This document shows, piece by piece, positions 10,134 through 25,565 of a stretch of DNA of 64,000 nt. This DNA is from Roseiflexus sp. RS-1 (lineage in GTDB: Bacteria > Chloroflexota > Chloroflexia > Chloroflexales > Roseiflexaceae), in contig NC_009523.1 of the NCBI RefSeq assembly GCF_000016665.1, positions 3,967,501 to 4,031,500 on the forward strand, written 5' to 3'. Under the pieces are notes generated by a model. It searched no databases, was not told the DNA's origin, and saw nothing but the letters and a program-made list of their open reading frames with translations. The position numbers and the translations under genes are program-made. Numbering within the stretch: position 1 is the stretch's first letter; each line of letters begins with the position of its first letter.

Positions 10134-10250
10134 CACGGTACTCCGGTAGCTTTATGTGAATCTATCCGTGTACCGTGTGCTACGCACGCTGTTGACGGAT
10201 GGATGTTCAATCGTTGAATATTCTTAAGAACCTATCCCCGGAAGACCTTC

Positions 10251-10448
10251 CTCACAGGGGTGGATGTTTTGGCACGCCCCTGCGCGCCATCTCCCGTTTC
10301 AGCCATCAGAACGCCCAGACTCCCCCTTCTCCCCGTGTGAGAGAGGGGCAGGGGGAAGGCTCACAGGGGTGGATGTTTTGGCACGCCCCTGCGCGCCATC
10401 TCCCGTTTCAGCCATCAGAACGCCCAGACTCCCCCTTCTCCCCGTGTG
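10251..10448. repeat. Two direct copies of the dispersed hairpin repeat
   Basis: A segment of about 89 bases starting CTCACAGGGGTGGATG begins at 10251 and again at 10360, a 109-bp period. It is the same family as 894-1505 but inverted: CCATCTCC..., AGAACGCCCAGACTCCCCC and the hairpin arm CCCCCTTCTCCC are shared. The second copy is cut in its hairpin loop by the insertion sequence that starts at 10448. The rest of 10134-10250 shows no gene. Confidence 0.75.
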
Positions 10449-11833
10449 GGTTGAAAGGGGGGGGATTCGCAGGCAGATTGTCAACCGTTTCCGTTCCACC
10501 GAACGCACGGGCCGATCCGTCGGTATCATGATCATGGAAGGATCGCGAGACACGGAGGATGGTATGTCCCGCACGTCCACAGAACGGTTGCTGCAGCAGC
10601 AGATCCAGACCCTCTTCCCGCGCTTGTCGCGTCACCGGCGCCGCGCCCTGGCCCGCTGGGTCTTGGGCGCCTTATTGGCGGGGAGCGCCAATCGTCCCGC
10701 GCTGGTGCACGCGCTCGCCACTGCCGGGATCGCCCGCGCCGCCACCCTGGCGGACGCCTGGGATGCCTGGATCGCCGCCCCGGCCCATCGCATTGACACC
10801 GCCGACCCACCCGCAGCGGGTGCGCCACCGGTGGTCAGTCCGCTGGCGTGCGGCGCCGACCTGCTCCGCTGGATTCGCGCGCACTGGACCGGCGGACCGC
10901 TGGTGCTTGGGCTGGATGCCTCCCATCGGCGCGATGACGTCGTTCTGCTGCGCATGAGCGTCCTCTATCGGGGCACCGCCCTGCCGGTCGCCTGGGTGAT
11001 CGTCCCGGCGAACCAACCGGGTGCGTGGGAACCGCACTGGGAGCGGATGCTGCGCTGGGCCCGCAGCGCGCTGCCGCTCGACCAGGAGGTCCTCGTGCTG
11101 GCGGATCAGGGGTTGTGGAGCCCCCGGCTGTGGCACGCCATCCGGTCGCAGCAGTTCCATCCCATCATGCGGGTGCGCACCACGTCGACCTTCGCGCCGA
11201 CCGGTCAGGCGCGCCAGTCGGTGCTGCGCCTGGCGCCCGGACCGGGGCATGGATGGGTGGGCGTGGGGGTCGCCTTCAAGCACGCACCCAAGCGGATTGC
11301 GGGCACGCTGGCGGTGGCGTGGGGCGCCGACCATGCGGAACCGTGGGTGCTGCTGACCGATCTGCCGCCCGCGCAGGTGGATGCCGCGTGGTATGCCCTG
11401 CGCAGTTGGGATGAGGCGGGCTTCCGCCAAAGTAAGTCGATGGGCTGGGACTGGCAACGCGGTCAGGTGACGGACCCGGATGCAGTCGCCTGGCAGTATC
11501 TGGTAGTGGCGACGGTCACGCTGTGGACGGTGGCCGTCGGCACGCGGATCGAAGATGCAGAACAGCAGGGGGTTCCGCCCGGTCGCCTGAAGCGGGCGCC
11601 GCCGACGACCGGCGCGCCGCCGCGCCGTCGCTGGAGCGGCACGGCGCAGCGGGTGATCAGCCTGCTCCGGCGGGGGATGCAGCACCTGCGCTGGTTGCTG
11701 GCGCAAGGGCGTTGTTGGGTCCGCTTGTGGTTGCGCCCGGAGCCCTTGCCCAAAATAGGTGACAGCGTAACCATGCATATCTATGACCCGTCCCAATGCC
11801 TGAAATCGCCCTAAATCCCCCCCCTTTCAACCC
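10448..11833 (+). mobile_element. IS4-superfamily insertion sequence, 1386 bp
   Basis: The element is bounded by perfect 20-bp terminal inverted repeats: GGGTTGAAAGGGGGGGGATT at 10448-10467 and its complement at 11814-11833. It is flanked by a 5-bp direct repeat CGTGT (10443-10447 and 11834-11838), the expected target duplication. Removing the IS and one CGTGT restores a perfect 12-bp hairpin (CCCCCTTCTCCC/GGGAGAAGGGGG) whose loop is exactly CGTGT, so insertion hit the loop of the dispersed repeat. It encodes one intact transposase whose stop codon touches the right inverted repeat. It looks complete and recent. Confidence 0.9.
10564..11814 (+). CDS. IS4-superfamily DDE transposase
   Basis: The 416-aa protein catalyses cut-and-paste movement of the surrounding IS. 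The DDE residues appear as LGLDASHRRDD, VLADQGLWS and the Y-(2)-R-(3)-E-(6)-K signature in YALRSWDEAGFRQSK, which is diagnostic of the IS4 group. The start ATG at 10564 gives an N terminus (MSRTSTERLL) inside the IS. An in-frame upstream extension would run through the repeat and is not used. No frameshift or internal stop is seen, so the enzyme may be active. Confidence 0.9.
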   Translation: MSRTSTERLLQQQIQTLFPRLSRHRRRALARWVLGALLAGSANRPALVHALATAGIARAATLADAWDAWIAAPAHRIDTADPPAAGAPPVVSPLACGADLLRWIRAHWTGGPLVLGLDASHRRDDVVLLRMSVLYRGTALPVAWVIVPANQPGAWEPHWERMLRWARSALPLDQEVLVLADQGLWSPRLWHAIRSQQFHPIMRVRTTSTFAPTGQARQSVLRLAPGPGHGWVGVGVAFKHAPKRIAGTLAVAWGADHAEPWVLLTDLPPAQVDAAWYALRSWDEAGFRQSKSMGWDWQRGQVTDPDAVAWQYLVVATVTLWTVAVGTRIEDAEQQGVPPGRLKRAPPTTGAPPRRRWSGTAQRVISLLRRGMQHLRWLLAQGRCWVRLWLRPEPLPKIGDSVTMHIYDPSQCLKSP

Positions 11834-13762: not shown

Positions 13763-15148
13763 TCACTTCCCGATACAAAACCGGCTGAAGATGGCATGCA
13801 GCAGGTCCTCGCCGACCGACTCGCCGGTCACTTCGCCGATAGCGTTGATCGCCGCTGTCAGGTCAACCGCCAGCAGATCGGGAGAGACACCCTGCTGGAA
13901 ACCGGTAAGCGCGTCGCGCGCATGATCCGCTGCGCGCGCCAGTGCATCACGATGGCGTGCATTGGTCACCAGACGCCCATCCGCCGCTATTGGCGCACCC
14001 AGCAACAGACGCGCCACCGTTGCGCCGAGTTCGTCGAGACCCTGTCCGGTTAATGCTGAGACGGTCACCATCGCGTCGAATGCCTTGCCGCGGATCTGTT
14101 CATATTCACGCTGCCGCGCTGCGATGATCGACCGATCGGCGTCGATCAGGTCGATTTTGTTGAGCGTGAGGATCGTGCGTTTCTCTTCGGTCAACGCGAC
14201 AATCTCGCGGTCATCGTCAGCAACCGGGAGTGACACATCAACGACCAGCAGCGCCAGGTCTGCCAGCCTCACCGCCTGACGACTCCGTGCCACGCCAAGA
14301 CGCTCGACCGGATCGTCACTTTCCACGATCCCTGCGGTGTCCGTCAACACCACAGGCACGCCTCCCAGACTGGCGGTTTCCTCAAGCGTATCGCGCGTCG
14401 TGCCGGGGATCGGCGTCACAATCGCCCGATCAACGCGCAGCAGTGCGTTCAACAGGCTCGACTTTCCGGCATTCGGACGCCCGATCAACGCAGCGCGTGC
14501 GCCCTGGCGATAGATGATCCCGTGCTGCGCTGACGCAACCAGCGCATCGAGCGCCTGAACTGCCGCCGTCAGGGGAGTCTCGATGTCCTGCGGATCGACT
14601 TCGTCTTCAGGAAAATCGACCAGTGCTGTGCAGTATGCCAGCGGGTCCATCAACAGGTCACGGATGCGGTGCAGTTCCTGCGAGAGCCATCCGCCCAACT
14701 GCGCCTCTGCCAGCGCCAGCGCTGTCGTCGTTCGCGCTGTGATTATGTCAAGCGTTGCTTCTGCCTGAGCAAGATCGATCCGCCCATTCAAGAAAGCGCG
14801 CATGGTGAACTCGCCGGGAGCGGCCGCCCGCGCGCCAGCCGCCAGCGCCTGTTGCAGCACCCGCTCGACAACCAGCGGTCCTCCGTGAACTGATATTTCG
14901 GCAGTGTCTTCAGCAGTGAAGCTTCGTGGACCGCGCATGAACACTGCCAGCGCCTCGTCCACGACTGCGCCGTTCTGGTCAACCACACGACCATAACGCA
15001 TCTGGTAGGGTTTCCACCGACCAGGTCGCACCGGCACGAAGATGCGCTCCAGGATCTTCAACGCATCTCTTCCGCTTATGCGCACAATTCCAATGCCACC
15101 CTCGCCGGGCGGCGTCGCAATGGCTGCAATTGTGTCGTCATACAGCAT
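13763..15148 (-). CDS. mnmE: tRNA modification GTPase MnmE
   Basis: MnmE, with MnmG, installs the cmnm5 group on U34 of certain tRNAs, using GTP, 5,10-methylene-THF and glycine. The 461-aa protein has the N-terminal tetrahydrofolate-binding domain (IAAIATPPGEGGIGIVRISG), a central Ras-like G domain with GRPNAGKSSL (G1), DTAG (G3) and NKIDL (G4), and the C-terminal FCIGK with the catalytic Cys. The ATG at 15148 aligns with the family start; an ATG at 15178 adds ten unconserved residues. Its stop overlaps the next gene's start region. mnmG lies separately at 22612. Confidence 0.97.
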   Translation of the reverse strand: MLYDDTIAAIATPPGEGGIGIVRISGRDALKILERIFVPVRPGRWKPYQMRYGRVVDQNGAVVDEALAVFMRGPRSFTAEDTAEISVHGGPLVVERVLQQALAAGARAAAPGEFTMRAFLNGRIDLAQAEATLDIITARTTTALALAEAQLGGWLSQELHRIRDLLMDPLAYCTALVDFPEDEVDPQDIETPLTAAVQALDALVASAQHGIIYRQGARAALIGRPNAGKSSLLNALLRVDRAIVTPIPGTTRDTLEETASLGGVPVVLTDTAGIVESDDPVERLGVARSRQAVRLADLALLVVDVSLPVADDDREIVALTEEKRTILTLNKIDLIDADRSIIAARQREYEQIRGKAFDAMVTVSALTGQGLDELGATVARLLLGAPIAADGRLVTNARHRDALARAADHARDALTGFQQGVSPDLLAVDLTAAINAIGEVTGESVGEDLLHAIFSRFCIGK

Positions 15149-15256
15149 ACGACAGAACCGGGTTGCCCCGGCAGGCATGCATCCTGCCGATCAAGATTCT
15201 GGCGTCATTGTACCGGATCTCGCCCGACTGCGCCGGGAAAGCGTGCGCCGGACACA

Positions 15257-16609
15257 TTACGGTTGAACCGGTGGCGGTTCGGGCGTCGGCGGTTCGGGTG
15301 TTGGCGGTTCAGGCGTCGGCGGCGCGAGTGTCGGTTGCGGGCGCACCGTCGGACGCGGGCGCGCCGTTGGAGACGGCGTGGCGGTTGGCTCCAGCGTGGC
15401 CGTTGGTTCAGCAGTCGGGCTTGGCGTCGCGGTGCTTGTCGGCGTCGGGCTTGGTGTCGCAGTCGGTGTGAATGTCGCCGTTGGCGAGAAGGTTGGCGTC
15501 AGGGTTGGCGTCGGGGTCGCAGTCGGTGGAACAAACAGCATGCGTGCCCGTTCACCAAGCGCCGCAACACCTGCCGGGTCGATCGCCAGAATGCCGCCAA
15601 TGCCGATCACCAGCGCCAGCAACACCACGGCAGCCCATACCCACCAGGGTGGCGCAGAGCGCGGCAGCGACGTTCCTCCCAGGGCGAACAGAGGTTCGAC
15701 CGGCGCAGTGTAGTGGCGCTGACGATACTCTTCGAGTGCATGGGTCACATTCAATCCCAGGTAGGCGGCATACGTCTTCACCATCGCTTCGGTCATCGCA
15801 CCGTGCGGCAGCAGGGAAAACTTCTCCTCCTCCATCGCCTGGATATAGGACATGCGGATTTTCGTATCGAGTTCCGCCTGCACCAGTGTAATGCGCCGCC
15901 GTTGACGCGCTGCGTGCAGGCGTGCGCCAAGCGGCAGCCGCTCCAGTTCGGCGACCCGCAACTCATCGACCGGCATTGACGTGTGATCAGCGATCAGACC
16001 ACGCTCCTCAGCATGCGGAATAAAGACCGCCTCTTCTTCGTCATCGGAAGGACGCGCACGACGCAGGCGCTTCGTAGAACCCCCAGAATCCGAATGGCGG
16101 TCGTGCGTGTTTGCGACAGCAGCGGTCGCATCATCGGCAATGTCGTCATCGTCACCCAGATCGATCACCCTGGACGCGGTTGCCGGCGATGCCGCAGACG
16201 CGGTAGGAGTGGTAGAAGACGTGTCCTGGGAAGGAACGATCTCGTGAGTCGATCTCGATTTCAAATGTGCACGCAGACGGGCGAGCAACTCACCGGTGCG
16301 AAACGGCTTGGTCAGATAATCAACGGCGCCAGCGTCGAGTCCACGCACGACATCCTCTTCAAGACCATCGCCGCTGATCACAATGGTTGGTGTACGCGCC
16401 GCCAGGCGGGGCAGAAACTCCCAGCCAGCCTGGCGATCAATAGCCGGCTCCAGTAGCGCCAGATCAACCGTTGCACTGTCAAGGACATATTCCACCTGAC
16501 GCACACTGGTCGCCTGGATGGTTTCATATCCGGCATCTTTGAGTTGTGTCGCCAGCCGCGCCAGCAACACGACATCATCGTCAATAATCAGGATGGTTGG
16601 AGTTTTCAT
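15257..16609 (-). CDS. Response-regulator receiver fused to RodZ-like HTH membrane protein
   Basis: The 450-aa protein starts with a CheY-like receiver (residues 1-120; IIDDD, VISGDG, YLTKPF). A Ser/Thr/Asp-rich linker follows, then a RodZ-like XRE helix-turn-helix (about 235-310; LGARLHAARQRRRITL), one membrane segment (WWVWAAVVLLALVIGIGGIL) and a long Thr/Pro repeat tail outside the membrane. The position of the phosphorylated Asp is Glu54 (LALLEPAID), so it may be locked in an active-like state. RodZ links MreB to cell shape; whether this protein does so is unknown. The ATG at 16609 starts the receiver exactly. A TATAAT box lies 31 bases upstream. It is divergent from the gene at 16681. 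Confidence 0.82.
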   Translation of the reverse strand: MKTPTILIIDDDVVLLARLATQLKDAGYETIQATSVRQVEYVLDSATVDLALLEPAIDRQAGWEFLPRLAARTPTIVISGDGLEEDVVRGLDAGAVDYLTKPFRTGELLARLRAHLKSRSTHEIVPSQDTSSTTPTASAASPATASRVIDLGDDDDIADDATAAVANTHDRHSDSGGSTKRLRRARPSDDEEEAVFIPHAEERGLIADHTSMPVDELRVAELERLPLGARLHAARQRRRITLVQAELDTKIRMSYIQAMEEEKFSLLPHGAMTEAMVKTYAAYLGLNVTHALEEYRQRHYTAPVEPLFALGGTSLPRSAPPWWVWAAVVLLALVIGIGGILAIDPAGVAALGERARMLFVPPTATPTPTLTPTFSPTATFTPTATPSPTPTSTATPSPTAEPTATLEPTATPSPTARPRPTVRPQPTLAPPTPEPPTPEPPTPEPPPVQP

Positions 16610-16640
16610 GAGAAATTGACATTTCTTCTGACGGCGCGCT

Positions 16641-16646
16641 ATTATA
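16641..16646 (-). promoter_or_regulatory. -10 box of the receiver/RodZ-like gene
   Basis: A perfect TATAAT on the minus strand lies 31 bases before the ATG at 16609, in the 71-bp gap between divergent genes. Confidence 0.5.
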
Positions 16647-16680
16647 ACATGACCAGTATCGATGCATAAGGAAGAAACGT

Positions 16681-17670
16681 ATGGCGACACGCGTCGTTTG
16701 TTACGGACTCGGCCCAATCGGTCTGAGCATTGCACGTCTCGCCTGCGCGCGGTCTGGCATCCAGGTCGTCGGCGCCGTTGATATCGATCCGCAGAAAGCC
16801 GGTCGTGATCTGGGCGAATTGCTGGGCATTGGCGCGACCGGCATTTCCGTCAGCGCCGATGCCGCAACGACACTGAGAAACACGCGCCCCAATGTCGTGC
16901 TGCATGCCACGCTTTCGTCGCTTGCCGCCGTTGTACCGCAGTTGCAGGAATGTATCGCCGCCGGCGCCGATGTCATTTCGACATGCGAGGAACTCGCCTA
17001 CCCGTGGAGCGCCCAACCACAGATAGCAGCGGATCTGGATGCTGCGGCACGCGCTGCTGGCGTCACCCTGCTCGGTGCAGGGGTCAACCCTGGTTATGCA
17101 ATGGATGCGTTGCCGGTTATGCTGACGGCGGTGTGCGCCGGGGTGCGCGCCATTCGTGTGCTGCGCATCGTTGATGCAGCGCAGCGACGCGCTCCGTTGC
17201 AACGCAAGATTGGCGCCGGGCTGACACCCGACGAATTCGCGCAACGTGTGCATGAAGGCACGGTGCGCCACGTTGGATTGCCTGAGTCTCTTCACATGAT
17301 CGCAGCAACGCTCGGATGGCAACTCGATGCTGGCGATGACACGATTATGCCCGTCCTTGCCGAACGCGCAATCGCCACCGAACACGTTTCCGTCGCCGTC
17401 GGGCAGGTCGCCGGCGTGCGTCAGATCGCGCGCGGCTACGTTGGTGAGCGCGAAGTCATTGCTCTTGAATTGCAGATGTACGTTGGTGCACCCAATCCGC
17501 AGGATACTGTTGAGATCGATGGCGATCCACCGCTGCGTATGACGATCCCCGGCGGCATCCATGGAGATAGTGCGACCGCTGCTATCGCCGTCAACGCGAT
17601 TGCCAGCATTCGCAGAGCCGAGTCCGGATTGCTGAGTATGACCGATATACCACTGGTTCATTACTGGTAA
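16681..17670 (+). CDS. Dihydrodipicolinate-reductase-like NAD(P)-dependent dehydrogenase
   Basis: The 329-aa protein has an N-terminal Rossmann fold (VVCYGLGPIGLSIARLA, acidic VDIDPQKAG) and resembles the DapB-like/2,4-diaminopentanoate dehydrogenase family. A GAGVNPGYAMD motif follows near residue 135. It may oxidise or reduce an amino-acid-derived substrate. It is longer than true DapB (~270 aa) and lacks an obvious DapB catalytic His-His-Lys block, so lysine biosynthesis is not claimed. It stands alone, convergent with puhE five bases away. Confidence 0.72.
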   Translation: MATRVVCYGLGPIGLSIARLACARSGIQVVGAVDIDPQKAGRDLGELLGIGATGISVSADAATTLRNTRPNVVLHATLSSLAAVVPQLQECIAAGADVISTCEELAYPWSAQPQIAADLDAAARAAGVTLLGAGVNPGYAMDALPVMLTAVCAGVRAIRVLRIVDAAQRRAPLQRKIGAGLTPDEFAQRVHEGTVRHVGLPESLHMIAATLGWQLDAGDDTIMPVLAERAIATEHVSVAVGQVAGVRQIARGYVGEREVIALELQMYVGAPNPQDTVEIDGDPPLRMTIPGGIHGDSATAAIAVNAIASIRRAESGLLSMTDIPLVHYW

Positions 17671-17675
17671 TACGC

Positions 17676-18455
17676 CTACCCGACGTCCACCCGGCGTTCG
17701 CCCCACATGGCGCCCACCGGCGGGGTCATCAGCAACCAGATTTCGAGCAAGCCCAGCAGGGTAAGAAAGCTGAGCAGCGTTCCAACAACCGCTTCAAAAT
17801 CGGTCGCATCAGGGTGGAGCGCCCAGCGCGCCAGCAATGTCGCCACCACGACAGCAGCGGTGACGGAAAGAGGGAAGAACAGATTCATCGGGCGATAGCG
17901 AAAGAAGATGCCGAGGTGACGCAGGTGATCCGGCAGCAATCCGGCGTGAAAATTGCGCGCACCCAGAAAAATGTTGATTTTGGCAGCCAGATGCATCAAC
18001 CAGAGGAGGAGGTACGTCCACCAGCCTGTCTGGTTCGCAGCATCCCAGCTGAGCGCTGCCACAACGACAGCCCCGGCAAGGGCGGCAAGTTCGTGATGCA
18101 GGCTCGCATGCACTGCCTGCCCGAACCGAACGAAGCTGCTAGGGTGCCAGACCAGCGGCTCCTGACGCGGTCCCGTAACAAACCCCATGTAGAACCCGGC
18201 AAGTTGCCATCCCCACAGGAGCGTCCCACAGGTAAATCCCAGATACGCCCCCAGCATACCGGTATCGTCACGCGCCAGCCACACCCCGTAGAGCGACGCC
18301 AGCCCGACCGCCGTGAGCGCAGCGAAACTCAGGCGATAGGTACGCTGCGGCAATCGATAGAGCAGAATAATAATGGCAGTCGACACCCACCAGAGAACCA
18401 GCGCGTAAAGCAGAGGCACAAGGTATCGGGTGAAAACTGGAGATATGTCGGGCAT
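17676..18455 (-). CDS. puhE: PuhE-like photosynthetic complex assembly protein (DUF3623)
   Basis: This 259-aa polytopic protein has about seven hydrophobic segments and the family blocks HASLHHELAAL, LWLMHLAAKINIFLGARNF, LLPDHLRHLGIFFRYRPMN and LFFPLSVT. PuhE is found in phototrophs with type-2 reaction centres and is needed for efficient assembly or bacteriochlorophyll supply. The ATG at 18455 (MPDISPVF) is the natural start; any extension upstream would be encoded by heptanucleotide repeats. It lies downstream of pucC on the same strand, separated by the repeat tract. The family call is confident; the exact role in this lineage is inferred. Confidence 0.85.
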   Translation of the reverse strand: MPDISPVFTRYLVPLLYALVLWWVSTAIIILLYRLPQRTYRLSFAALTAVGLASLYGVWLARDDTGMLGAYLGFTCGTLLWGWQLAGFYMGFVTGPRQEPLVWHPSSFVRFGQAVHASLHHELAALAGAVVVAALSWDAANQTGWWTYLLLWLMHLAAKINIFLGARNFHAGLLPDHLRHLGIFFRYRPMNLFFPLSVTAAVVVATLLARWALHPDATDFEAVVGTLLSFLTLLGLLEIWLLMTPPVGAMWGERRVDVG

Positions 18456-18458
18456 GTG

Positions 18459-18636
18459 AAGAACCAGGAACCGAGAACCAAGAACCAAGAACCGAGAACT
18501 AAGAACCAAGAACCAAGGACCGAGAACCGAGAACTAAGAACCAAGAACCGAGAACCGAGAACTGAGAACCGTCCAACCTGCAACCTGCAACCTGCAACCT
18601 GCAACTGTTCAACCTGCAACCTGCAACCTGCAACTC
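18459..18636. repeat. Heptanucleotide tandem repeats between pucC and puhE
   Basis: From 18459 to about 18570 the sequence is repeats of AGAACCA/AGAACCG. From 18573 to 18636 it is repeats of AACCTGC. Both have 7-bp period. Tracts of the same period but other sequence occur at 31408, 51050, 52636, 52845 and 53227. Confidence 0.85.
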
Positions 18637-18675: not shown

Positions 18676-20100
18676 TCAGAACAGAATCTGATCGCCGGGC
18701 AGATCCTGCAACCCTGACCAGGGTGAGCGGACGGCGCCCTCGCGCAGCTGACGTCCGAGGCGCAACACCATGATCAACCCCAGGGTAAGGAGCAGAATAA
18801 CCAGTGCTGCGGCATAGACCGAAGTATATCCGAGCAGGATGCTGCCGGTTTGCTGTTGCGCAATATCGCGCGCCAGACCGCCACCCACCGTGCCGAAACC
18901 CTGCGCCAGCGCCTGCGTCACACCCCACAGACCAATGAACAATCCAGCATGCGCGCGGTCGGCAAGCGCCATAATCAACGCCACCGAACCAACGATAAAT
19001 AATCCGCGACCGATACCAATAAACACCACGCCGCCACGGAACATATTCACATCGACGCTTCCGCCTGCCAGGATGACCACCAGGAACCCAAGCGCGCCGG
19101 AAATGCACCCGCCAATAATTACTCCGATAGGAGAGTATCCACGCCACAACGCCAGACCTGCGGCGGTAATCCCGATGATCATCGCCACGCCCCACAACGC
19201 CGTCAACCGCGTTGTGGCGGCGACGCTCATGCCGAGCACCTGACCACCATACGGTTCGAGCAACACATCGTGTGTGGCGAGCGCCAGCGTGCCGCCAAAC
19301 AGCACAACGAACAACGCGCGCAACCCCGGTTGCTGCCAGACCACACGGAGTTGCTCGACCAGCGTCAACCGCACACGAATATCATCGGTATGGTTGACGA
19401 GGGTTCCATCAGGGCGCAGTTGCTCACGCCCCAGCAGCGATATCGTCGCCAGCACAGCGAAGATGACCGCCGAACCCTGCATCACCTGGATCAACAGCAC
19501 CGGCGAATATCGTTCGAGGATCGCGCCAACGATGATCGAACTGACGATGGTGCCGACGACCAGCATCATCCACAGCACCGCCAGCACCTTCCCGCGGTCG
19601 CGCGGCGGAGTAATATCGCTGACCAGCGCCAGATAGGTTGTTTCGACGATATTGACGCCGACACCGTATGCCAGGAAAATCGCAGTACAGATGATGAGCG
19701 CGATTGCGAACGGCATCGAGTCGTTGGGACCCAGCAGGATCAACGAGAACGGTGCAGTCGCCAACCCGCCATATGTCAGCATGAGACCCAATGCCACATA
19801 GGGCATGCGCCAGCGCCCTCGCGCCCGTTCCACATCCGACCGATACCCAAAGACTGCGCGTACCGGCGAGACAAAGTAGTGGATCGCCATTAACGAAGCG
19901 ACAAGAGCAGCCGAAATGTGCATATCACCGATCAACACACGGTTGAGCGTGCCGGTGATCGGCGCCAGTGCAACTCCCATGCCCAGTTGAAACAAGCCCA
20001 GACGCAGCACATTCGTCCACCAGGCAATCGCCTGGTGATCGCTGAACCAGCCACTGACGCGCTGCGCCAGACCGGACACACCCTGGCTTCCAGTCGCCAT
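18676..20100 (-). CDS. pucC: PucC-family major facilitator (BCH/light-harvesting assembly)
   Basis: The 474-aa protein has about 12 membrane helices and PucC/LhaA features: WWTNVLRLGLFQLGMGV, IHYFVSPVRAVFGYRSD, SDITPPRDRGKVLAVLW and LLEPYGGQVLGMSVA. PucC proteins help assemble light-harvesting antenna complexes, probably by handling bacteriochlorophyll. A strong Shine-Dalgarno (GAGGAGG) precedes the ATG. The gene follows the cyclic-nucleotide ferredoxin gene and precedes puhE on the same strand, which supports a photosynthesis role. An inverted repeat at 20157-20179 sits just upstream. Confidence 0.88.
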   Translation of the reverse strand: MATGSQGVSGLAQRVSGWFSDHQAIAWWTNVLRLGLFQLGMGVALAPITGTLNRVLIGDMHISAALVASLMAIHYFVSPVRAVFGYRSDVERARGRWRMPYVALGLMLTYGGLATAPFSLILLGPNDSMPFAIALIICTAIFLAYGVGVNIVETTYLALVSDITPPRDRGKVLAVLWMMLVVGTIVSSIIVGAILERYSPVLLIQVMQGSAVIFAVLATISLLGREQLRPDGTLVNHTDDIRVRLTLVEQLRVVWQQPGLRALFVVLFGGTLALATHDVLLEPYGGQVLGMSVAATTRLTALWGVAMIIGITAAGLALWRGYSPIGVIIGGCISGALGFLVVILAGGSVDVNMFRGGVVFIGIGRGLFIVGSVALIMALADRAHAGLFIGLWGVTQALAQGFGTVGGGLARDIAQQQTGSILLGYTSVYAAALVILLLTLGLIMVLRLGRQLREGAVRSPWSGLQDLPGDQILF

Positions 20101-20217: not shown

Positions 20218-21666
20218 TCATAACGGGAACACTTCCTCAACCGACACAAGCCGCAGGGCGCCGGTCGGACAGGCGCTGACACATGCCAGATCGTTGTATC
20301 CGTGGCACAGGTCGCATTTGTTTGCTCGTTGTTGCGTCTGATGATCCGTTTCCAGCGGAATGACCGGCATGCGCCAGCGCTGCAATCGCTGCCACAATCC
20401 CCAGAGCGGCGACTGATGCGGCGGAGCGATGGAACGCATGTCCACAGCATGGTAAGGACATGCCGGCACACACGCGCCACACCCGTTGCACGCATCGGTA
20501 ATGAACAGTGCGCCGCTCTCATTCCAGACGATTGCATCTTCAGGGCATGCTTCGACGCACTCCGCTCCGACACGACACTGCCGACACGCATCAGCGATTT
20601 CGATACCGTTCAAGGTCAAACCGGAAAAATGAATGCGCCCGGCGCCGTGACGTGATGCACAGGCATCTTCGCAAATCCTGCACCCGGGCTTACACAGACT
20701 CAGGTCGCGCACCAGAATGTGGGTTCCCCGGCGCAATCCATGTTCAAGTATCGCCGATAATTGCGCCTGACGCTCTGCATCGCTGCGGATCGCCCGACTC
20801 GCGGCTTTGCGCTGCTCGACGACTTCGCGCAACTGCATCGCCAGTTCCGGACGACTCGCCAGTAGCGCCTCCAGATCCTGGACCGGCAGCGCCAGCGCTT
20901 CCACCGGCGTTAGCGCCCGCACGTCCGCATTGTGCGGTTGATGGGTCAGCAGCGACATTTCGCCAAAGAAATCGCCTTCTTCAAGATAAGCGATCACCTG
21001 ACCGTTCTGCTCGATAACCACCTGACCCGACATGACGATATACAGCGCATCACCGATCGCCCCCTGCCGGAGCACGATCGCGCCGCGACTATACTGCATC
21101 GGGCGCAACACTCTGGCGATATGGATGCGTTCAGCCGGCGACAGGCGACTGAAGAGCGGCACGCGACCCAGCGTGCCCTCGACCAGGCGTTGCTGATAGA
21201 TCTGGCGCAATGCCCGTTCCAGTTCCGGCGAACCGGGCAGCATTGCACGAACCTCCGTCAGCGGGACCTGCACGAGATAACAGACGGTTTCAGCACGCAC
21301 TGTCGCTCCGCGAAAACGGTCGCCAAACAGCGTTGCAACCCCCAAACAATCACCACGGCTGAGAACGCCAATCAACACCTGACGCCCCGCCCGATCATGG
21401 AGCGTCAGACTGACAGAACCGCGAAGAATGAACGAGAGAAACGCGATGGGACGCTGTTCATTCACAATGATTGCGCCGGGCACGAATGCACGTAACGTTG
21501 CGCACGCCGCAAGGCGCGCCAGGGTATCGGGCGTGACGCCTTTCAGACAGTCGAGCTGCGCCAGCGCCTGCGTTTGTTGCTGACGCCGCTCTCGATAGCG
21601 TACCGCCGTATCACTTGAAGATGCTGGCATCCGTTGCTGATCGAACGGCGCAGTCTTTGCCCCCAT
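20218..21666 (-). CDS. Double cyclic-nucleotide-binding domain, 4Fe-4S ferredoxin protein
   Basis: The 482-aa protein has two CNMP-binding-type domains (about residues 35-150 and 155-275; the second has GDFFGEMSLLTHQPHNADV). Then comes a Cys-rich region: CKPGCRICEDACASRHG, CRQCRVGAECVEACPEDA, CNGCGACVPACPYHA and CDLCHGYNDLACVSACP, enough for about four Fe-S clusters. There is no helix-turn-helix, so it is not a classical CRP/FNR regulator. It probably links a nucleotide or ligand signal to electron transfer; partners are not visible. It is cytoplasmic by sequence. It lies between a lipoprotein gene (6-base gap) and pucC. Confidence 0.85.
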   Translation of the reverse strand: MGAKTAPFDQQRMPASSSDTAVRYRERRQQQTQALAQLDCLKGVTPDTLARLAACATLRAFVPGAIIVNEQRPIAFLSFILRGSVSLTLHDRAGRQVLIGVLSRGDCLGVATLFGDRFRGATVRAETVCYLVQVPLTEVRAMLPGSPELERALRQIYQQRLVEGTLGRVPLFSRLSPAERIHIARVLRPMQYSRGAIVLRQGAIGDALYIVMSGQVVIEQNGQVIAYLEEGDFFGEMSLLTHQPHNADVRALTPVEALALPVQDLEALLASRPELAMQLREVVEQRKAASRAIRSDAERQAQLSAILEHGLRRGTHILVRDLSLCKPGCRICEDACASRHGAGRIHFSGLTLNGIEIADACRQCRVGAECVEACPEDAIVWNESGALFITDACNGCGACVPACPYHAVDMRSIAPPHQSPLWGLWQRLQRWRMPVIPLETDHQTQQRANKCDLCHGYNDLACVSACPTGALRLVSVEEVFPL

Positions 21667-22474: not shown

Positions 22475-22611
22475 TATTATTGAAGTTGTCCATCCAGACG
22501 ACCGCACCAACGTCTCCGTGGCAACTGTAATGATAAACAGGCTGGCAAGACCGGTGTTCATCGCGTTTCTTTTGAGCGGTCTTGTCGGATCAACCATTCC
22601 ACAACACATCT

Positions 22612-24651
22612 ATGCACAGTACCCATCCATATATCTACGATGTCATTGTTGTCGGCGCAGGGCACGCCGGATGCGAAGCGGCGCATGCCGCAGCGCGCAT
22701 GGGATGTCGTACCCTGCTACTGACCATCGATCTCGATAAACTGGCGCATATGTCGTGCAATCCATCGATCGGCGGACCGGCAAAGGGGCATCTGGTTCGT
22801 GAGATCGACGCACTGGGCGGACTGATGGGGCGCGTGACCGATCGCACCTTCATCCAGATCCGTCTGCTCAACGAGAGCAAGGGTCCGGCGGTGCAGGCGC
22901 CGCGCGCTCAGGCGGATAAGCGCCTCTACGCGAAGGTGATGAAAGAGACGCTCGAAACGATCCCCAACCTTGATCTCCGCCAGGCGATGATCGAGCGTAT
23001 CATTCTACCGCGACCAATCAATCGCAATGGCAGCGATACCGACGATGCGGAAGCGCTTTGCCCCGGTCACTATGCAGTCGTGACCCATACCCGGCGGATC
23101 TACCAGTGTCGGGCATTGGTGCTGACAACCGGCACGTTTCTGCGCGGCAGGGCGATCACCGGCGACGCGATCTGGGGCGCAGGACGGGCGGGCGAAGCGC
23201 CTGCCACTGCGCTCGGTGAAGATCTCGCTGCGCTTGGCTTTCCGCTGGTGCGGCTCAAGACCGGCACGCCGCCGCGCATCGATGCGCGCACAATCGATTT
23301 TTCGCTCACAAGCGTGCAGCACGGCAGTGCAACCCCGCTGTTCTTCGGCTTTTACTATCGCGCCCTGAACGAAGCGCCTCCCGAACCGGCATTCGGCGGT
23401 CCTCCCGCCAGCGCGTATCCTGAACCACTCCTCGATGCCTGGCGTCCGCAATTGCCCTGCTACCTGGTGCATACAACGCCGGAGTTTCACGAGATTGTAC
23501 GGCGCAACCTGGATCGCGCGCCGCTGTTCAGCGGGATCATTGAAGGGGTTGGTCCGCGTTACTGCCCTTCCATCGAAGATAAGATCGTGCGCTTCGCCGA
23601 CAAGGAGCGTCACGGGCTGTTCCTCGAACCCGAAGGCTGGTCGACGCACGAGGTCTACGTACAGGGATGCAACACGTCGCTGCCGGAAGATGTGCAGTGG
23701 GCGATGCTGCGGAGCATCCCGGCGCTCCGTCGCGTCGAACTGATGCGCGCCGGGTATGCCATCGAATATGACGCGCTTGCGACCGGCGAGATCGCTGCCG
23801 ATATGTCGTCGCGCCGCGCTCCGGGGTTGTTCTTCGCCGGTCAGATCAACGGTACGACGGGGTACGAAGAAGCGGCTGCGCAGGGGTTGATGGCTGGCAT
23901 CAATGCCGCACGTTTCGTTCAGGGGAAGCCGTCTGTTCTTCTTCGTCGTGATGAAGCCTATATTGGCGTGCTGATCGACGACCTGGTCACAAAAGAGATC
24001 CGCGAGCCGTACCGTATGTTCACCTCGCGCGCCGAGCATCGCCTCCTGCTGCGCGCCGATAATGCCGACCTGCGCCTGACGCCGCTCGCAGGCGAGTTGG
24101 GGTTGGTCGACCGTGAGCGTGTGGCGGTCGTTGAGCGCAAACGCGAAGAAGTGGAGCGCCTGCTCGCTGTGTTGCGCGGCAAACGCCTGTACCCGTCGGC
24201 AGCGATCAACGCCCGTCTGAGCGCTGCCGGAATTGCGCCGCTCACCGGTGAGATGAGCGCCGAAGAAGTGCTGCGCCGCCCCGAGGTGCGATACCGGCAA
24301 CTCCAGCCAGCGCTCGACCTGCCAGCATGCGAAGCCGATGTCGCCGAACAGGTCGACATCGAAGCGAAGTACAGCGGGTATCTGCTCAAACAACAGCGCG
24401 AAGTTGAACGATTGCGCCGCATGGAGTCGCGGCGCATCCCGCCCGATTTCGACTTTGCCGCGCTGCGCGGGTTGCGCAACGAGGCGCGGCAGACATTGCA
24501 ACGCTTTCGACCGGCGACCATCGGGCAGGCGGCGCGCCTGGCGGGGATCAACCCCGCCGATATTGCGCTGCTCCTCGTCGCCCTCGAACGACAGACACGC
24601 CAGGCGACGCCGGTCGAAACGCCTCACCCATCGCTGCCGCACACCGGGTGA
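22612..24651 (+). CDS. mnmG: tRNA uridine-34 carboxymethylaminomethyl modification enzyme MnmG
   Basis: MnmG is the FAD/NADH partner of MnmE in U34 modification. The ~679-aa protein has the FAD Rossmann motif GAGHAGCEAA, CNPSIGGPAKGHLVREIDALGG, a second dinucleotide region, GLFFAGQINGTTGYEEAAAQG, and the C-terminal helical domain (EAKYSGYLLKQ). The length is slightly above the usual ~630, partly from an insertion near residue 140. The ATG at 22612 matches the family start; a TTG at 22582 preceded by GAGCGG is an alternative. It is not adjacent to mnmE. Confidence 0.96.
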   Translation: MHSTHPYIYDVIVVGAGHAGCEAAHAAARMGCRTLLLTIDLDKLAHMSCNPSIGGPAKGHLVREIDALGGLMGRVTDRTFIQIRLLNESKGPAVQAPRAQADKRLYAKVMKETLETIPNLDLRQAMIERIILPRPINRNGSDTDDAEALCPGHYAVVTHTRRIYQCRALVLTTGTFLRGRAITGDAIWGAGRAGEAPATALGEDLAALGFPLVRLKTGTPPRIDARTIDFSLTSVQHGSATPLFFGFYYRALNEAPPEPAFGGPPASAYPEPLLDAWRPQLPCYLVHTTPEFHEIVRRNLDRAPLFSGIIEGVGPRYCPSIEDKIVRFADKERHGLFLEPEGWSTHEVYVQGCNTSLPEDVQWAMLRSIPALRRVELMRAGYAIEYDALATGEIAADMSSRRAPGLFFAGQINGTTGYEEAAAQGLMAGINAARFVQGKPSVLLRRDEAYIGVLIDDLVTKEIREPYRMFTSRAEHRLLLRADNADLRLTPLAGELGLVDRERVAVVERKREEVERLLAVLRGKRLYPSAAINARLSAAGIAPLTGEMSAEEVLRRPEVRYRQLQPALDLPACEADVAEQVDIEAKYSGYLLKQQREVERLRRMESRRIPPDFDFAALRGLRNEARQTLQRFRPATIGQAARLAGINPADIALLLVALERQTRQATPVETPHPSLPHTG

Positions 24652-24806
24652 ATGCCAGCAAGTTCATCTGCATACGAGGGCGCCGGGTTATGGTATGATT
24701 GTGCAGCGCTGGTGAGACAGTGCTCAATCCTTCTGCCCTGGTTGCTCTGACCATCACCGGAAAGTTCTAACGTTCGTACCGGTCCTGAATCGCCGTGGAG
24801 CACCGT

Positions 24807-25565
24807 ATGTCCGTGCCCATTTCAGGTCCTGCGACGGCATTTGTGATCGAGGACGATCCGTTTGCCCGCTGGGCGCTCGGTCAGTATCTCGAGTCGCTCC
24901 GATTTACGGTGCTTACTGCCGAGACCTACATCGATGCCTCTGCCCTGATTGCCGGGCATCCGCCACCCCGGCTTGCCGTTGTCGATCTGGCGCTCCGCGA
25001 CAATCCGGCGGAACCAATCCCTCAATCGCGCTCACGCGGCATCACGCTGGTGCATGCCTTGAAGCGCCGTGATCCGGCGGTGGCTGTGGTGATCTGGAGC
25101 GCCTATGGCGGCACGATTGCACCGATACTGCCGCTGCTGACCAGCGGTTATACCGGTCTGGCGTATGTGGCGAAAGGCAGCCCACAAGAGGCGCTGCACG
25201 ACGCGATCACCCATGCACTGCGCCAGGATGTGTTTTTCCAGCCTGGCATCGACCACGCAGCGACCGACTCGTGGGAGCAGATGTTTCTGGACGCGCTTGA
25301 ACCGGCGGTAGCGGCAACGGTCGTCAAACTGGCGCGCTGCTTCGATGAATTGACGCCGCAACAGCGCGCGGTCGCGGAGCGGATGGCGTGCACCACCGAG
25401 GCAATCGCCCATCAACTCGGAATCAGAGTAACGACCGTGCGCAAATATATCGACGCTATCTATGATCGGCTGGAACTCAAGGATACGGAGACTGTCGCGG
25501 GGTACCGACGCGAAGTGCTGCTGGCGCTGGCGCACATCCTGCGACGTTTGCGGACAACAGCGTAA
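24807..25565 (+). CDS. Response regulator with LuxR-type HTH
   Basis: The 252-aa protein has a receiver domain (FVIEDDPFARW; phospho-acceptor Asp60 in LAVVDLAL) and a C-terminal LuxR/NarL-type helix-turn-helix (LTPQQRAVAERMACTTEAIAHQLGIRVTTVRKYIDAIYDRL). It should bind DNA after phosphorylation. No kinase gene is adjacent; the nearest orphan kinase is at 43919-45637. The ATG at 24807 has GGAG six bases upstream. Confidence 0.85.
   Translation: MSVPISGPATAFVIEDDPFARWALGQYLESLRFTVLTAETYIDASALIAGHPPPRLAVVDLALRDNPAEPIPQSRSRGITLVHALKRRDPAVAVVIWSAYGGTIAPILPLLTSGYTGLAYVAKGSPQEALHDAITHALRQDVFFQPGIDHAATDSWEQMFLDALEPAVAATVVKLARCFDELTPQQRAVAERMACTTEAIAHQLGIRVTTVRKYIDAIYDRLELKDTETVAGYRREVLLALAHILRRLRTTA

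Follow-up and report, generated by a model that had tools for sequence, protein, structure and literature searches.

A natural and reversible exchange of Asp and Glu at the phosphorylation site of a receiver domain appears, from the comparison of orthologous sequences, to characterize a membrane protein of the Chloroflexales, in which the receiver is fused to a RodZ-type HTH domain (HTH_25), a single transmembrane (TM) helix and, in many members, a Thr/Pro-rich tail. The gene considered here belongs to Roseiflexus sp. RS-1, the genome of which is a single contig of 5,801,598 bases. Positions refer to the window, i.e., the whole stretch of 64,000 nucleotides that was analyzed. The orthologues of the window protein are called family A and those of a second protein of similar design are called family B.

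The gene (15257..16609, minus strand, 450 residues) is organized as receiver, linker, HTH_25, TM helix and Thr/Pro tail, all the features below being on the minus strand. It is read from an ATG at 16609 to a stop at 15257, the plus frame across 15257-16609 is broken by stops, and the start is constrained by a stop codon that lies 7 codons before it in an orthologue of 93% identity. The receiver (Response_reg, PF00072; residues 6-112, 16274..16594) scores 66.4 bits in Pfam for a cut-off of 30.2, and its fold is backed by Foldseek, with TM-scores of about 0.9 (target-normalized) against receiver domains. The linker (residues 121-222, 15944..16249) is of low confidence or disordered (residues 122-193 in the AlphaFold2 model) and ranges from 33 to 302 residues across orthologues. 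It contains a short conserved motif, VFIxxAEERxL (residues 195-206, 15992..16027), in which F196, E202 and L205 are invariant among 11 orthologues. The HTH_25 domain (PF13413; residues 230-287, 15749..15922) scores 59.3 bits for a cut-off of 24.6. It is confidently modelled by AlphaFold2 as five helices and matches, by sequence, two PDB entries, i.e., T. maritima RodZ (2wus_R) and the chlamydial CT009 (4gqm_A). The single TM helix (residues 322-343, 15581..15646) is found by both AlphaFold2 and hydropathy, the hydrophobic stretch beginning at residue 325 with a mean hydropathy of 2.7. It is followed by a juxtamembrane helix (AlphaFold2; residues 345-359, 15533..15577) and by the external tail, defined by composition (residues 362-450, 15260..15526). 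The region after the TM helix has about 107 residues, of which 56% are Thr or Pro.

Pfam, hydropathy and AlphaFold2 thus bear out the receiver-HTH_25-TM-Thr/Pro fusion that a first-pass annotation had described. Contacts between receiver and HTH, for which that annotation had called on structure prediction, are not supported: the AlphaFold2 model, built with 11 sequences, is confident for both domains and gives no reliable interdomain contact. The tail is kept in most Roseiflexaceae-, Herpetosiphon- and f4-type genomes. It has fewer than 30 residues in most Chloroflexaceae-type genomes and is therefore not essential to the family; it is probably a dispensable external stalk.

Orthologues of the fusion are present in 74 of the 82 genomes of the Chloroflexales, an order of filamentous bacteria, and 7 of the 8 genomes without a match are less than 86% complete. 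Outside the order, the class contributed 76 genomes, and none of them had a match reaching 1e-20. A profile search of a sample of 400 genomes of the phylum gave 370 matches; among the matches listed, those from beyond the Chloroflexales are confined to the receiver. The receiver-HTH_25-TM fusion thus looks like an order-specific core gene of the Chloroflexales, and its conservation in 70 or more genomes means that it is not due to chance. In the literature searched, the coverage of which is incomplete, no paper joins RodZ with Chloroflexus or describes such a fusion.

The two parts might have been separate genes in relatives, which would have spoken against the fusion. This is the case in one genome only (G035). 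Its receiver forms a gene by itself next to mnmG, on sequence without gaps, and the HTH-TM half is about 150 kb away, behind a scaffold gap of 100 N. It must be noticed that the two halves (L134:4922-5272 and L102:4434-5195) are split at the repeat-rich linker, the gap being on the HTH side. The split may be a rearrangement or, given the gap, a misassembly.

The acceptor codon of the window protein is GAG (16448..16450, read from 16450 to 16448), i.e., Glu54, as had been noticed at first. The conservation of this residue holds only in part: the 72 orthologues contain Glu in 45 cases, Asp in 27 and another residue in none. All five Roseiflexus orthologues carry Glu and the other members of their family carry Asp, and Chloroflexaceae-type genomes mostly carry Glu. 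A maximum-likelihood tree was computed after masking of the acceptor and was rooted on ten sequences of paralogue B. Its well-supported branches force seven acceptor changes. By parsimony, Asp was changed to Glu twice, in Roseiflexus and in the ancestor shared by the three remaining families, and Glu to Asp five times (G053, the g29 clade, G034, G025 and G041). With a two-state model rooted at Asp, lnL is −30.6 if the exchange is reversible vs. −54.0 if the change from Glu to Asp is forbidden, i.e., the irreversible model is worse by 23 log units. Four of the five reversions are each seen in one genome only, in several cases a draft, and genus g9 is joined to the outgroup by long branches; the count of forced changes is unaltered by either. 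The naive single-base expectation that all seven changes land on Asp or Glu is about 1e-4, mutation bias being ignored. Sister proteins with Asp and Glu are 76-88% identical; pairs of them differ by a third-position change while the surrounding residues stay the same, e.g., VILEVRAGDG vs. VILDVRAGDG (GAG vs. GAC). With Asp in 27 of 72 orthologues and about five reversions, a receiver fixed in a constitutively «on» state by its Glu, as had been proposed, does not fit the family. These results suggest that a negative charge is all that the acceptor needs, or else that control by phosphate was gained and lost repeatedly.

Apart from the acceptor, where the canonical Asp is replaced by Glu54, the pocket of the window protein is canonical (D10, D11, D12, S79 and K101), with the acidic pair, the Thr/Ser and the Lys all in place. 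The window protein can thus be classed with the pseudo-receivers, defined by the absence of the acceptor Asp, and family A can be so classed only in part. D10, D12, K101, P102 and Ser or Thr at position 79 are kept in all 45 Glu forms, the receivers of which have a mean pairwise identity of 51%. D10 and the catalytic Lys (K101) are lost in two Asp forms (G062 and G070), thus Asp does not guarantee phosphotransfer. Taken together, the pocket kept in Glu forms and the loss of two of its residues in two Asp forms indicate that a carboxylate is selected in a pocket that looks functional. A motif search of the neighbourhoods revealed no histidine-kinase-like ORF beside any orthologue. This is a weak argument, since the kinase acting on an orphan receiver can be encoded far away.

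Paralogue B of the same genome (G000:C1:1863756-1864550, minus strand; L136:2254-3051) has 265 residues and, like family A, comprises a receiver, a linker, HTH_25 and a single TM helix. It differs from family A by an invariant Asp, a Thr switch, a TM helix at the extreme C-terminus and the lack of a tail. Asp, Thr and Lys are found in 31 of the 31 genomes sampled. Families A and B form separate clades with full support, and family B appears to be order-specific, as does family A. Paralogue B is thus an internal control, with architecture and organisms shared and the acceptor fixed, and was used as such for the acceptor statistics together with the published figures for aspartate-less receivers (ALR). 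It is undetected in many genomes carrying family A, and no correspondence is visible between its presence and the Asp/Glu state. A protein of 991 residues resembling HEAT repeats precedes paralogue B, and its reading frame overlaps the start of the latter.

The interpretation that we tentatively prefer, and to which we give close to an even chance, is that of a membrane-tethered adaptor or interaction hub, the receiver of which would need a carboxylate and not phosphorylation, perhaps with paralogue B as partner. The cytoplasmic receiver would be a protein-interaction module, probably for dimerization. It would require the carboxylate, the metal/lysine pocket and a folded alpha4-beta5-alpha5 face, phosphorylation of the acceptor being dispensable. 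Asp and Glu would be nearly equivalent in such a receiver, hence a site that swaps between these two alone. HTH_25 would bind DNA or a protein other than MreB at the membrane, to which the TM helix would anchor it, and the tail would serve as stalk. Paralogue B, with its invariant Asp, would be the likely phospho-responsive partner, by analogy with pseudo-receiver/receiver heterodimers, i.e., WhiI-BldM and, as a proposal, CmrT-CmrR (PMC12632262).

It is also conceivable, though rather unlikely, that a kinase phosphorylates the proteins with Asp and that those with Glu mimic the phosphorylated state and are locked on, phospho-control having been lost and regained repeatedly among the lineages. 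The pocket and switch residues kept in both states agree with this, but the loss of the catalytic Lys and D10 in some Asp forms does not. The reversible history of the acceptor is in its favour, and a regained phospho-control would also look like the five returns to Asp, in which Lys and acids stay intact, but no adjacent kinase was found by motif. Glu can partly mimic phospho-Asp in many response regulators (PMC12632262), but the change from Asp to Glu alone often fails to activate (PMC4395418).

A membrane-bound transcription factor of ToxR-like layout, in which the HTH would bind DNA under the control of the receiver, is improbable. The HTH_25 region is also a weak match to HTH_19, but among solved structures the closest to it in sequence are domains of RodZ type. 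The basic segment of helices 1-2 (RQRRRITLVQ) is conserved, but the helix that aligns with a recognition helix has at its end AMEEEKF, which is strongly acidic and conserved.

The HTH had been called RodZ-like and the protein linked to the cytoskeleton. The likeness stands for the order of parts, which, as in RodZ (2wus_R), runs from HTH_25 through one TM helix to an external region of low complexity. The window protein is unlike RodZ in that: (i) an N-terminal receiver is added; (ii) RodZ_C (PF13464) is absent according to Pfam; (iii) the aromatic residues contacting MreB are lost; (iv) a genuine RodZ, with HTH_25 and RodZ_C, is encoded separately in the same genome. The contact pair, in helix 4 of the HTH, is F60/Y64 in E. 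coli and Y66/F70 in CT009 (PMC4047632), and Y/F in the RodZ of this genome. All 72 family-A sequences carry Met, Ile, Leu or Val at the second of these positions, and the first is aromatic in one. The window protein is thus partly RodZ-like without being a RodZ, and binding of MreB in the manner of RodZ is unlikely, the cytoskeletal link being disfavoured by the loss of the second aromatic residue and by the true RodZ encoded elsewhere. A RodZ-like linker tying the receiver to MreB is very improbable, since the HTH_25 and 2wus_R matches and the two strong MreB genes of the genome are opposed by the loss of the two aromatic residues on which MreB binding depends (PMC4047632) and by the absence of RodZ_C.

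Glu is the commonest replacement of the acceptor in Asp-less receivers (26%; PMC4395418). Family A shares the receiver fold and a non-Asp acceptor with aspartate-less receivers and pseudo-receivers (PsR), e.g., ChxR (with Glu), WhiI and CmrT. Unlike these, it keeps the rest of the pocket, it has a membrane-anchored HTH_25 effector, and its site moves both ways between Asp and Glu within one orthologous family. The acceptor Asp of plant PRR and of fungal Rim15p is replaced by Glu lineage-wise; these proteins are eukaryotic and of other architectures, and the passages of PMC12632262 consulted mention no repeated return to Asp in them. How pseudo-receivers become active, and whether an acceptor Glu is responsible, is an open question (PMC12632262). 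Glu pseudo-receivers are thus already known, and what seems to be new here is the fusion and the repeated reversion from Glu to Asp, no description of which was found in a literature search of incomplete coverage. The family offers natural revertants, i.e., closely related sisters with Asp or Glu, plus an always-Asp paralogue, and the residue differences between sisters bear on the choice between equivalence, mimicry and regulation lost and regained. Two order-wide signalling proteins of the Chloroflexales (A and B) are also defined. If the switching of phospho-control were true, a single bacterial order would have lost and regained, time and again, such control over a core membrane protein.

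The gene is separated by a divergent intergenic region of 71 bp (16610..16680), with a promoter-like match on the plus strand, from a 2,4-diaminopentanoate-dehydrogenase-like gene (16681..17670, plus strand), a divergent neighbour conserved in several genera. Downstream and co-directional is mnmE (13763..15178, minus strand), a conserved neighbour in Roseiflexus. The window copy of mnmG (gidA) is at 22582..24651 (plus strand), and in nearly all Chloroflexaceae-type (f2) genomes the orthologue has mnmG directly next to it in divergent orientation. A link with tRNA modification was considered and rejected: the mnmE/mnmG neighbours vary by family, are absent in f3 and f4, and were treated as gene order. 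Photosynthesis-associated genes, DUF3623 and PUCC (17676-18509 and 18676-20100, minus strand), lie upstream of the gene. In genus g9 the orthologue directly follows pucC-DUF3623, with gaps of -51 to 25 bp, in an operon-like arrangement. A role restricted to photosynthesis was rejected, since the gene also occurs where reaction-centre genes are missing (all f3 and most f4 genomes).

Other features of the window and of the genomes compared were noticed. Two cyclic-nucleotide-binding domains are fused to 4Fe-4S dicluster domains at 20218-21666 (minus strand); this fusion of sensor and ferredoxin is unusual and recurs beside pucC in Roseiflexus. Just downstream of mnmG, an orphan weak receiver with a LuxR-like C-terminus, below the Pfam cut-off, is encoded at 24789-25562 (plus strand). 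A transposase-like ORF (weak DDE_Tnp_1; 10228-11811, plus strand) is found in a repeat-rich stretch between sigma-70 and DUF58 genes. Intein-like insertions, judged by eye, occur in a dCTP-deaminase-like gene of Herpetosiphon-type genomes (L098:5854-7071) and in mutS of G024 (L073:9213-11501).
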